From Phycisphaeraceae bacterium (GTDB taxonomy: Bacteria; Planctomycetota; Phycisphaerae; Phycisphaerales; Zrk34), in NCBI GenBank assembly GCA_028282805.1, contig JANQHD010000027.1, forward strand, positions 124,001 through 188,000: a stretch of DNA of 64,000 nt, written 5' to 3'. The translations under genes were made by a program, and so were the position numbers. Position 1 is the first letter of the stretch. Every line of letters starts with the position of its first letter. The notes under the pieces were generated by a model. That model was given only the letters and a program-made list of their open reading frames with translations. It was not told the DNA's origin and searched no databases. Shown one piece after another: positions 3,521 to 58,106 of the stretch.

Positions 3521-3551
3521 CCCACATACGTCTCCTCGCTATACTGCCCTT

Positions 3552-4091
3552 ATGACCGACCGCATCACCCGATCCGAGCGTATCTTCGACGGCGTCAAGT
3601 TCTCCGTGGACCGGATCGAGGTCCGCTCGACCGACGGGTCGCGGACCGTGACGCGCGAGCGGGTCGTGCACCCGGGGGCGGTGATCGTGCTGCCGCTGCT
3701 CGACGACGGGCGCGTGGTGATGATCCGCGTGCACCGGTTCATCGTGGGCCAGACGCTGTGGGAGCTGTGCGCCGGCACGCTGGAGGTCGGCGAGGACCCC
3801 GCCGAGTGCGCCAAGCGGGAGTTGATCGAGGAGACCGGCTACGCCGCGGGCCGGATCGAGAAGCTCACGGCGTTTTACACCAGCCCCGGTTTCTGCGACG
3901 AGTTCATGCACGCCTACGTGGCGACCGATCTAAAACACGTCGGCCAACGGCTCGAGGCGACCGAGGACATCACGGTCGAACCGATGGCGATGGCGGACGT
4001 ACTGACCATGATCCGCGACGGGCGGGTCAAGGACGGCAAGTCGATCGCGACGCTGCTGCACCACCACGCCTCCGGCTCCGATAACGGGTAG
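3552..4091 (+). CDS. NUDIX hydrolase, ADP-ribose pyrophosphatase type
   Basis: 179 residues. A complete NUDIX box is visible at residues 75-97: G(5)E(7)REL(2)EETGY, the magnesium-binding helix that hydrolyses nucleoside diphosphates linked to another moiety. The sequence before it (VIVLPLLDDGRVVMIRVHRF) and the LEVGEDP segment resemble ADP-ribose/ADP-sugar pyrophosphatases. The ATG at 3552 is preferred because family members start near here; no strong ribosome site is seen. It is first in a tight run with a rhomboid gene (10 bases on) and an M50 protease gene. Confidence 0.88.
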   Translation: MTDRITRSERIFDGVKFSVDRIEVRSTDGSRTVTRERVVHPGAVIVLPLLDDGRVVMIRVHRFIVGQTLWELCAGTLEVGEDPAECAKRELIEETGYAAGRIEKLTAFYTSPGFCDEFMHAYVATDLKHVGQRLEATEDITVEPMAMADVLTMIRDGRVKDGKSIATLLHHHASGSDNG

Positions 4092-4896: not shown

Positions 4897-5931
4897 ATGG
4901 CGTTTCACGATCGCCCCTATTACGGATCAGACGGTAGCGGCTCGGGCGGCGGCGGAAGGGATTGGGCCATGCGCATCCTGCAATGGCTCAACTGGTCGGC
5001 GTCGATCGGCACCTACCTCGGCGTCCGTGTTCGTGTGCACATCACGTTTATCCTGCTGATCGGCATCGAATTGATCATCCAGGGCGCACCGATGTGGACG
5101 CTACGCTGGGGCGGGTTGCTGTTTCTCAGCGTGTTGCTGCACGAGTTCGGCCACGTCCTCGGCTGTCGTGCGGTTGGCGGCAGGGCGAACGAGATCCTCA
5201 TGTGGCCCCTCGGCGGACTGGCGTACTGCGCGCCGCCCAAGCGCCCATGGCCCGAGTTCGTCACCGTCGCCTGCGGCCCGCTGGTCAACGTCGTGCTCGC
5301 GACGGCCTGTGCGCTGACGCTGTGGCTCGGGTGGGAGGGCAAGGTCGTTTCCTTCAACCCGATGAGGCTGTGGGACCACGTCTACCTCGGTGGCGTGCCC
5401 GGCTTCCTACAGGATGCGTTCGTCGTCAACTACGTCTTGCTCCTGTTCAACCTGGTGCTGGTGTTCTACCCGTTCGACGGCGGTCGGCTCGTGCAGATCG
5501 GGTTGTGGAGCAAGCTCGGCTACACCCGCAGCATGCAGATCGCCACGTCCGTCGGCATGTTGGGCGCGGTCGGTATCGGGTTATTTGGCCTAGCCACCAA
5601 CCGGTCGCTGTTGTTGCTGATCGGGTTGTTCGGTTTCTACACCTGTTACCAGCAGAAAAAGATGCTGCCGCAGATGATGGCCGGGGGATACGACGCGGGC
5701 TACGGCGGCGAGGACTGGAACCGCCCGCCGCAACGCGAGGGTTTCTTTGCCAAACGCCGCAGGGCCAAAGCCGAACGCGCCGCCGAACGCCGGGCCAAAC
5801 AACAGCAGATCGCCGACGCTGAAATCGACCGCATCTTGAAGAAGGTTTCCGATGAGGGGTTGCAGGCGTTGACCGAAAAAGAAAAAAGCACGCTCAAGAA
5901 CGCCACCGAAGAACGCCGCAGCGCGGGTTAA
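4897..5931 (+). CDS. Site-2 protease family (M50) zinc metalloprotease
   Basis: 344 residues. The zinc motif HEFGH is at residues 82-86 inside a hydrophobic segment. The second motif is FDGGR around Asp194, supplying the third ligand. Several further membrane spans are present. The C-terminal 75 residues are a soluble basic/charged tail rich in Ala, Arg and Lys, likely a coiled helix. The gene starts 9 bases after the rhomboid gene. No PDZ domain is seen, so it belongs to the shorter M50 group, often linked to regulated intramembrane proteolysis. A second ATG at residue 25 (MRILQW) is a possible alternative start. Confidence 0.85.
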   Translation: MAFHDRPYYGSDGSGSGGGGRDWAMRILQWLNWSASIGTYLGVRVRVHITFILLIGIELIIQGAPMWTLRWGGLLFLSVLLHEFGHVLGCRAVGGRANEILMWPLGGLAYCAPPKRPWPEFVTVACGPLVNVVLATACALTLWLGWEGKVVSFNPMRLWDHVYLGGVPGFLQDAFVVNYVLLLFNLVLVFYPFDGGRLVQIGLWSKLGYTRSMQIATSVGMLGAVGIGLFGLATNRSLLLLIGLFGFYTCYQQKKMLPQMMAGGYDAGYGGEDWNRPPQREGFFAKRRRAKAERAAERRAKQQQIADAEIDRILKKVSDEGLQALTEKEKSTLKNATEERRSAG

Positions 5932-56508: not shown

Positions 56509-56544
56509 CCCCCTCGAGACGCCACCACCTCGAGGGGGTCTTTT
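56509..56544 (+). terminator. Intrinsic terminator of nrdJ
   Basis: Perfect 10-bp stem CCCCCTCGAG (56509-56518) / CTCGAGGGGG (56529-56538), 10-base loop, then TCTTTT. Confidence 0.85.
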
Positions 56545-56575
56545 AATGCGCCACACAGACACGGCCGATCGCCCA

Positions 56576-56634
56576 ACACCCCGCCAGAATCAGCATTTTT
56601 GGGATGAAAAGTCATTCCTTACAATTGTAAGGAA
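56576..56634 (+). repeat. Left direct repeat ending in a perfect palindrome
   Basis: Starts ACACCCCGCCAGAATC, continues TTTTTGGGATGAAAAGTCA, and ends with the perfect 20-bp palindrome TTCCTTACAATTGTAAGGAA (56615-56634). Its core TACAATTGTA fits the TACAnnTGTA operator pattern of CopY/BlaI-type repressors. The right copy is at 57889-57957. Confidence 0.7.
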
Positions 56635-56804
56635 CAACTTTTTGCATCGTTCGTGGTTGTTGCATGGAAAGCTGGGTGACAGCGAGCCGGCTCGTGCCGA
56701 GCCGGCCCGTGAGGATGAGTTGACTTCAGCGCGCCGCGATGCACGGCGTGACATTGATGAACGTTCCCCCGGACCGGGCCGACACGGCCCGGCTCGCTGA
56801 AGCC

Positions 56805-56891
56805 GTAGGGTGCGTCGAGATTTCGAGACGCACCGCGATCGCGCATGATTGTGCTTAGGATGGTGCGTCTCGCAGACTTGACGCACCCTAC
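56805..56891. repeat. Nested hairpin repeat upstream of the EcsC gene
   Basis: The outer arms GTAGGGTGCGTC (56805-56816) and GACGCACCCTAC (56880-56891) are perfect complements. The inner arms GAGACGCACC (56825-56834) and GGTGCGTCTC (56862-56871) also pair. The left outer and left inner arms are themselves inverted copies, so several folds are possible. It looks like a REP/MITE-type dispersed element. Confidence 0.65.
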
Positions 56892-56943
56892 CTTGCTTGT
56901 TGTACTCTGGCCGATTCAGTTCAATCATGAAAGGGGAACTGCC

Positions 56944-57871
56944 ATGGGAACAGCTACGCCATCGGACTACGAGTGGATCGCGCTTGATCAGATCCACCAG
57001 TGGAAGAACCCGGAACTCGGCTGGTTTGGTCACACCATGCGGGTAATCAACTGGCCGTTGGACAAAGCTGGCGACACAGTCATGGCTACACCGGGGGTGG
57101 GGGTGGGTCATCCAAAAAGCGGTGGGCGGGGTCGTCTCGATTGCGAATGACGTATCGCAGTGGTCGGTTCGTCCTTCCGCGGTGTACCAGGAGTACCGTA
57201 GCAATGGATGCGAAGTGAACTCGCCCCGTGACATCTTCCAACTGGACTTGGAGCAGGTCGACAGGACTATCGGCTGGTTGTCCGCTAGGTACAAGGGGAT
57301 CGCGCTCGTGGAAGGCGCGGCGACCGGAGCGGCTGGCTTGCTGGGCATCCCGCCGGATGTGGTGGCCCTAGTGACTCTGAACTTGCGGGCGATCGGCGAA
57401 TACGCCACCTATTGCGGTTACGACGTGTCGAAACAGGAGGAAAGGCTCTTTGCGATGCACGTGTTGGGATTGGCCTCCAGTCCCAACGATGCCGCCAAAG
57501 GTGTTGCGATGGCGCAACTGGTCAAGATTGCCAAACAGGTTGCCCAAAAAAAACCGTGGAAGGAACTCAATAAGCACACCTTCGTCCAACTGATCCAACT
57601 GATCTCAGGGGCACTGGGGAGACGGCTTACTAAGGCCAAGCTTCAGCAAACCATCCCGGTCGCAGGAGCCGTGGTGGGTGGTGGTTTTAATGCGTATTAC
57701 ACGGCGAAGGTTTGCGACGCGGCCTACTACCTATATCGGGAACGGTTCCTGGCCAACAAATACAGCGACGAGGGCATGGTCGAAGCAACCGTACCTCCAC
57801 CCGACACGCTCGACGCGGGGTACGAAGAGGAACTGATTCCCGATTCGGATACACCCCCTGACGAAGCATAA
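56944..57871 (+). pseudogene. EcsC family gene with a frameshift in a G tract
   Basis: Frame 1 starts at the ATG at 56944 (AAGGGGA 8 bases upstream) and codes MGTATPSDYEWIALDQIHQW through MATPG. Downstream, the frame one base later continues as WVIQKAVGGVVSIANDVS to the stop at 57871. The join is a G-rich tract, CCGGGGGTGGGGGTGGGTC (57091-57109). Removing one G would give one frame of about 308 residues. The second part carries EcsC family features: GAAGLLGIPPDVVALVTLNLRAIGEYATYCGYD and IPVAGAVVGGGFNAYYTAKV. It may be a true pseudogene, a phase-variable gene or a sequencing error. EcsC family function is poorly known. Confidence 0.75.
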
Positions 57872-58106
57872 ACTGATGGAGACTCGGCACACCCGCCGAA
57901 TCCGGCAAAAACACACGTTTTTGCGATGAAAATCTATTCCTTACAATTGTAAGGAATAGCTCGACGCCACATCGAATTGGAGCCGGGCGCCGGGCGGGAT
58001 ATGTATGCGCAACGATCGCACTACGAGCATCTGAGCCGGGTTTTGCGAGCCCGGTCCGGCATCGCAGATGCCAGCTCTGATTGAGTCGAAGCGTCGGGTC
58101 GTTTAG
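57872..58106. other. Right flank of the EcsC islet
   Basis: No gene. Holds the right direct repeat (57889-57957) and small GC hairpins, including CCGGG-TTTTGCGAG-CCCGG near 58036-58054 and GCATCG/CAGATGC just after. Ends at the queF stop codon. Confidence 0.55.
57889..57957 (+). repeat. Right direct repeat ending in a perfect palindrome
   Basis: ACACCCGCCGAATCCGGCA, then TTTTTGCGATGAAAATCT and ATTCC...GGAAT around the same TTCCTTACAATTGTAAGGAA (57937-57956). It aligns with 56576-56634 along its length, with one short gap. Confidence 0.7.

Follow-up and report, generated by a model that had tools for sequence, protein, structure and literature searches.

The PadR-family regulator LmrR (PF03551) of Lactococcus lactis reportedly binds its own promoter and is autoregulated (PMC4534193). 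The system described here resembles that of LmrR in that the gene for a winged-helix regulator has a site upstream, but differs in the site, which is TTACAATTGTAA, and in the presence of 11 copies in one genome, mostly away from gene starts. Operators of the BlaI/MecI/CopY type share a TACAnnTGTA core with the palindrome examined here, and the PadR protein of this genome gives a weak, sub-threshold match to Penicillinase_R; the difference is that the gene linked to the site in this organism is padR. REP elements, which are associated with RAYT transposases, are similarly dispersed, extragenic palindromes, whereas the present copies have a near-invariant, predicted operator core that is common to promoters in other genera and were not seen next to a transposase. 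No matching PadR operator came up in the literature that was searched.

The ecsC islet and its bracketing palindromes

The window is the whole 64,000-nucleotide stretch of DNA from a Phycisphaeraceae bacterium that was analyzed, and the features of its nrdJ-queF region are listed in Table 1. Two direct repeats (56596-56639 and 57918-57961) exhibited 86% identity over 44 nt without gaps, and extension of the similarity leftward beyond 56596 and 57918 required a gap. The two predicted operators within these repeats are separated by 1322 bp. A -10-like TACAAT is present inside copy 1 (56620-56625) in the direction of ecsC, while copy 2 is located behind ecsC, opposite the 3' end of queF, and faces no gene start. 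Covariance-model matches of the surrounding modules had E values of 1e-11 for copy 1 and 4e-12 for copy 2, each copy being itself among the input of the model. Two GC-rich, REP-like inverted repeats are present upstream of ecsC (56680-56891), and AGCGAGCCGG, from the first of these, was frequent in the sampled part of the genome.

The ecsC reading frame starts with an ATG at 56944, is interrupted by a frameshift within a run of G near 57090-57115 and resumes to a stop at 57871. Homologs in three other records (L117-L119; 71%, 56% and 46% identical) have a single frame across this junction, indicating that the gene is damaged or was misread in assembly, and hence the frameshift represents either a sequencing error or a pseudogene. 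No ecsC gene was found in the genomes of eight family relatives. The recognized relatives of this gene are in records assigned to different phyla, a spread which suggests horizontal transfer.

In a same-genus relative (G001, 85% complete), the nrdJ and queF genes are convergent and separated by ~180 bp, with the nrdJ terminator retained; the exact islet junctions are beyond resolution at the divergence of this genome. Either the ecsC block was inserted in this lineage or it was lost from G001, and insertion is favored because ecsC is absent from the other relatives too. The comparison of presence and absence with G001 covered two places, this islet and a cluster on contig C52, where a segment with four palindrome copies was also missing from G001.

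Table 1. Features of the nrdJ-queF region, by position in the window
Feature	Position	Strand	Remarks
nrdJ intrinsic terminator	56509..56546	+	Kept in G001; terminator-like match at 56527-56539
DNA absent between nrdJ and queF in G001	56547..58106 (approximate)	.	Gap of ~180 bp in G001
~60-bp repeat module, copy 1	56578..56639	- (alignment orientation)	Palindrome plus T-rich flank; 11-copy alignment
Palindrome copy 1, predicted PadR operator	56615..56634	.	Perfect, 20 bp; core shared with padR promoters in other genera
GC-rich imperfect inverted repeat, REP-like	56680..56799	.	Inverted repeat I3
GTAGGGTGCGTC...GACGCACCCTAC inverted repeat, REP-like	56805..56891	.	Inverted repeat I2
ecsC-family gene	56944..57871	+	PF12787, E 3.5e-34 (Pfam); lies between repeats
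~60-bp repeat module, copy 2	57899..57961	-	Alignment
Palindrome copy 2, predicted PadR operator	57934..57959	.	Perfect, 26 bp, CTATTCCTTACAATTGTAAGGAATAG

A sequence-only reading of this DNA had described bracketing repeats, a TACAnnTGTA core and further palindromic repeats inside the block; all of these were present, the first as two direct copies with perfect palindromes of 20 and 26 bp around ecsC and the last at the positions of I3 and I2. The same reading had placed an EcsC-family gene between the repeats, and the domain (PF12787) was detected, although the frame was not intact as sequenced. Its statement that no promoter position fits both copies was correct for copy 2 but not for copy 1, which is suitably placed upstream of ecsC. 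The view of the block as an islet was upheld by the absence of ecsC from the eight family relatives and by the near adjacency of nrdJ and queF in G001, which provided the empty site that the reading had suggested looking for. Other copies of the repeat, for which it had also suggested a search, amounted to nine beyond the window pair.

Distribution and anatomy of the palindrome copies

Searches with the 20-mer, allowing up to 2 mismatches, detected 11 occurrences in the 3.9-Mb genome and none with a reversed control, indicating that the palindrome is not due to chance. A search with the 14-bp core CTTACAATTGTAAG that tolerated at most 1 mismatch detected the identical 11 sites and no others. 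These copies are grouped at 8 places, 6 of which (9 of the 11 copies) are gaps between convergent genes, although such gaps make up 22% of intergenic bases (P of ~0.002, with both islet copies assigned to the nrdJ-queF gap, genes from a simple gene-calling model and independent places of our own choosing). Three copies were located upstream of a gene start, namely, those of padR, ecsC and a prepilin-like gene (L008:7516), and the putative promoter at each aims at its gene, an agreement which, with three cases, proves little. A perfect 50-bp palindrome around the second operator type described below was observed just behind the prepilin-like gene (L008:6081-6130).

The mean pairwise identity of the 14-bp core across copies was 0.987. 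On one flank, identity was 0.50 over the first 20 nt and 0.37 over the next 20; on the other flank, it was ~0.33. This one-sided conservation was above that of shuffles (0 of 2000), in a test that is inflated by the picking of copy orientations by eye from the same data. The copies are probably parts of a common longer module, which would be old, with diverged flanks and a core that has been held. The consensus fold is a 10-pair stem capped by an AAUU loop, with a T-rich tract after it; a second hairpin, noticed by eye in the right flank, was missing from this fold and was rejected. Integron attC and dif sites were considered as possible parallels and likewise discarded. Base composition switches from C rich to G rich around the copies, and 6 of the 9 strongest switches were at palindromes in a 0.53-Mb sample in which palindrome loci were overrepresented. 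Similar skew switches, some of them at hairpins, were detected in another genus (G007).

A covariance model detected no further or decayed copies in this genome, matching the known 11 only, on both strands, and found no copy of the module in eight family genomes. Among 60 relatives, there was one site with 2 mismatches, and the exact 20-mer had no match in GTDB contigs (in which this genome is possibly not included) or in viral contigs. Two copies (L008:4559 and 4759) have an alike flank of ~70 bp, on the side opposite the generally conserved one, which suggests a local tandem duplication.

Association of the palindrome with padR genes

The padR gene of this genome (G000:C20:68326-68685; PF03551, E 5e-13) has a palindrome copy upstream, and TTCCTTACAATTGTAAGGAA is the site that PadR is predicted to bind. 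Within locus L007, the gene starts at 5827 and the palindrome is at 5574-5597, about 230 bp upstream, a greater distance than in the PadR homologs. The exact 12-mer TTACAATTGTAA was present at 3 places among 120 relatives outside this genome, and one of these was close upstream of the closest padR homolog in the family (G006; 50% identity). Within the family, a padR gene of at least 50% identity and the 12-mer were found together only in the present genome and G006; G001 and the remaining family genomes had neither a padR gene of 50% identity nor the 12-mer.

Further PadR homologs were obtained by a class-wide search, and ten homologs from other genera (40-57% identical) were compared. The 12-mer, with up to 2 mismatches, was located within 150 bp upstream of 6 of these 10 genes, while shuffles gave 0.05 on average and never more than 1. 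The match was exact in L121, L148 and L155, had 1 mismatch in L147 and had 2 mismatches in L149 and L152. The 12-mer was absent upstream of four more distant PadR genes (30-34% identical). Most of the six homolog promoters have a TTGAC-like -35 box followed by a -10 hexamer within the palindrome, and a -10 element in this position is a usual arrangement for the operator of an autorepressor. The homolog sites are 14-16 bp long, and the palindrome in the present genome is longer, at 20-26 bp. Copies in the present genome have weak -35 boxes, and a simple sigma-70 scan detected no promoter in the islet. Overall, these comparisons point to an operator of a PadR autorepressor as the most likely identity of the palindrome; from them we infer PadR binding, promoter activity and regulation of ecsC.

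A small protein is encoded 3' of several PadR homologs (L147:453-965, L148:1820-2302, L150:995-1465 on the minus strand and L151:889-1341), with a recurring IPRxxREAxxGDLxED-like motif and no Pfam family above its cut-off. The padR gene of the present genome is followed by a different gene.

Alternative explanations and a proposed mechanism

One alternative is that ecsC was moved by a small mobile cassette that has the repeats as its ends, or by a mobile palindrome of the REP/MITE type. The block is insertion-like in comparison to G001, the C52 cluster is also in DNA missing from that genome, the extragenic copies have a REP-like placement, mostly at 3' ends, with a flank partly in common, and there are five Y1-transposase-like (Y1_Tnp) matches in the genome, none of them at a listed palindrome position. 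However, no transposase or integrase was recognized beside the copies among the genes examined. Furthermore, strongly diverged flanks around a near-invariant core, with decayed copies not found, are not what recent mobility predicts, and this palindrome also occurs in the promoters of padR genes from other genera. As 9 of the 11 copies bracket neither the ecsC block nor a similar block, the repeats are at most putative cassette ends; this proposal of the sequence-only reading failed on its own terms, and we consider mobility of either kind to be unlikely. We also regard as improbable that the palindrome is a 3'-end signal, either an intrinsic terminator or an RNA hairpin between convergent genes. 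The stem, loop and T-rich tract of the consensus fold would suit such a role, both window copies score as terminator-like, having a hairpin and a U tract with stems low in G+C, and the excess of convergent gaps and the strong C-to-G skew switch point in the same direction. A terminator, however, requires a stem and not an invariant sequence, and a Rho-site or terminator reading of the C-rich and G-rich flanks, in which the skew is real, was set aside since it leaves the invariant core unaccounted for. The nrdJ gene already has a conserved terminator, retention of which in G001 indicates that copy 1 is dispensable for ending nrdJ; moreover, the copies upstream of genes and the use of the core as a promoter element in PadR homologs do not fit with this explanation.

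An operator of the BlaI/MecI/CopY type was suggested by the core of the palindrome and is compatible with the presence of two PF03965 genes in the genome. No TACAnnTGTA box was detected at either PF03965 locus (L110 and L111; ~3.3 kb each), and the same site is contained in the promoters of PadR homologs. These two results led us to reject BlaI/CopY as the regulator, such that from the sequence-only reading the operator-like palindrome was retained but its assignment to this family was not; an operator of this type is the least credible of the three alternatives and is very improbable.

We regard as likely, on comparative sequence evidence, that a winged-helix repressor of the PadR family, encoded elsewhere in the genome, has this palindrome as its operator. 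A PadR dimer would bind CTTACA-AT-TGTAAG, overlapping the -10-like TACAAT, and so exclude RNA polymerase; release of PadR by some ligand would lift autorepression. Multiplication of this operator to 11 copies in this lineage would have included about 20-40 bp of the flank upstream of it. Copy 1 lies upstream of ecsC, a gene probably acquired by horizontal transfer, and is oriented such that PadR could control it. Copy 2 may assist binding through looping, give rise to an antisense transcript or be a passenger. At the other gene ends, too, the copies lack a gene to drive in sense; these copies and copy 2 could serve in antisense transcription, looping or titration of PadR or may be passengers. 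The location of 6 of the 8 places in convergent gaps is unusual for repressor operators and counts against the PadR-operator explanation, as do the weak -35 boxes, the negative sigma-70 scan of the islet, the distance of the padR copy from its gene and the greater length of the palindrome. The palindrome would be mostly explained as a PadR operator, with its multiplication into gene ends being the interesting and unexplained part. One tentative idea, which we hold to be doubtful, is that a PadR operator-promoter module has spread into convergent gene ends, where one ligand-controlled repressor governs antisense or gene-end transcripts or roadblocks and not the usual promoter regulon.

The pairing of a regulator with its DNA word was made by comparison alone, in a little-studied bacterial group. 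The PadR-operator explanation would also provide a case of operator multiplication, in which an autoregulatory site is present 11 times, mostly at gene ends, and was not seen in a same-genus relative (85% complete). Functional gene-end sites would represent an unusual use of a repressor; non-functional ones would be an example of operators spreading and persisting.

Other palindromes were observed in this genome. A second dispersed palindrome, TTCTAAnGTTCTTAAGAACnTTAGAA, had 30 sites genome-wide with up to 2 mismatches and none for the control. Two of these (L030:3221-3246 and 3533-3558; G000:C52:203221 and 203533) flank an ArsR/SmtB-type HTH gene, one at each end, and this palindrome looks like an ArsR-type operator; one similar site was detected in another genus (G007, L085 about 4483). 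The sequence ATGTTTCACGTGAAACAT is present at L025:7698-7715, and we take it to fit the general parS pattern of other bacteria.
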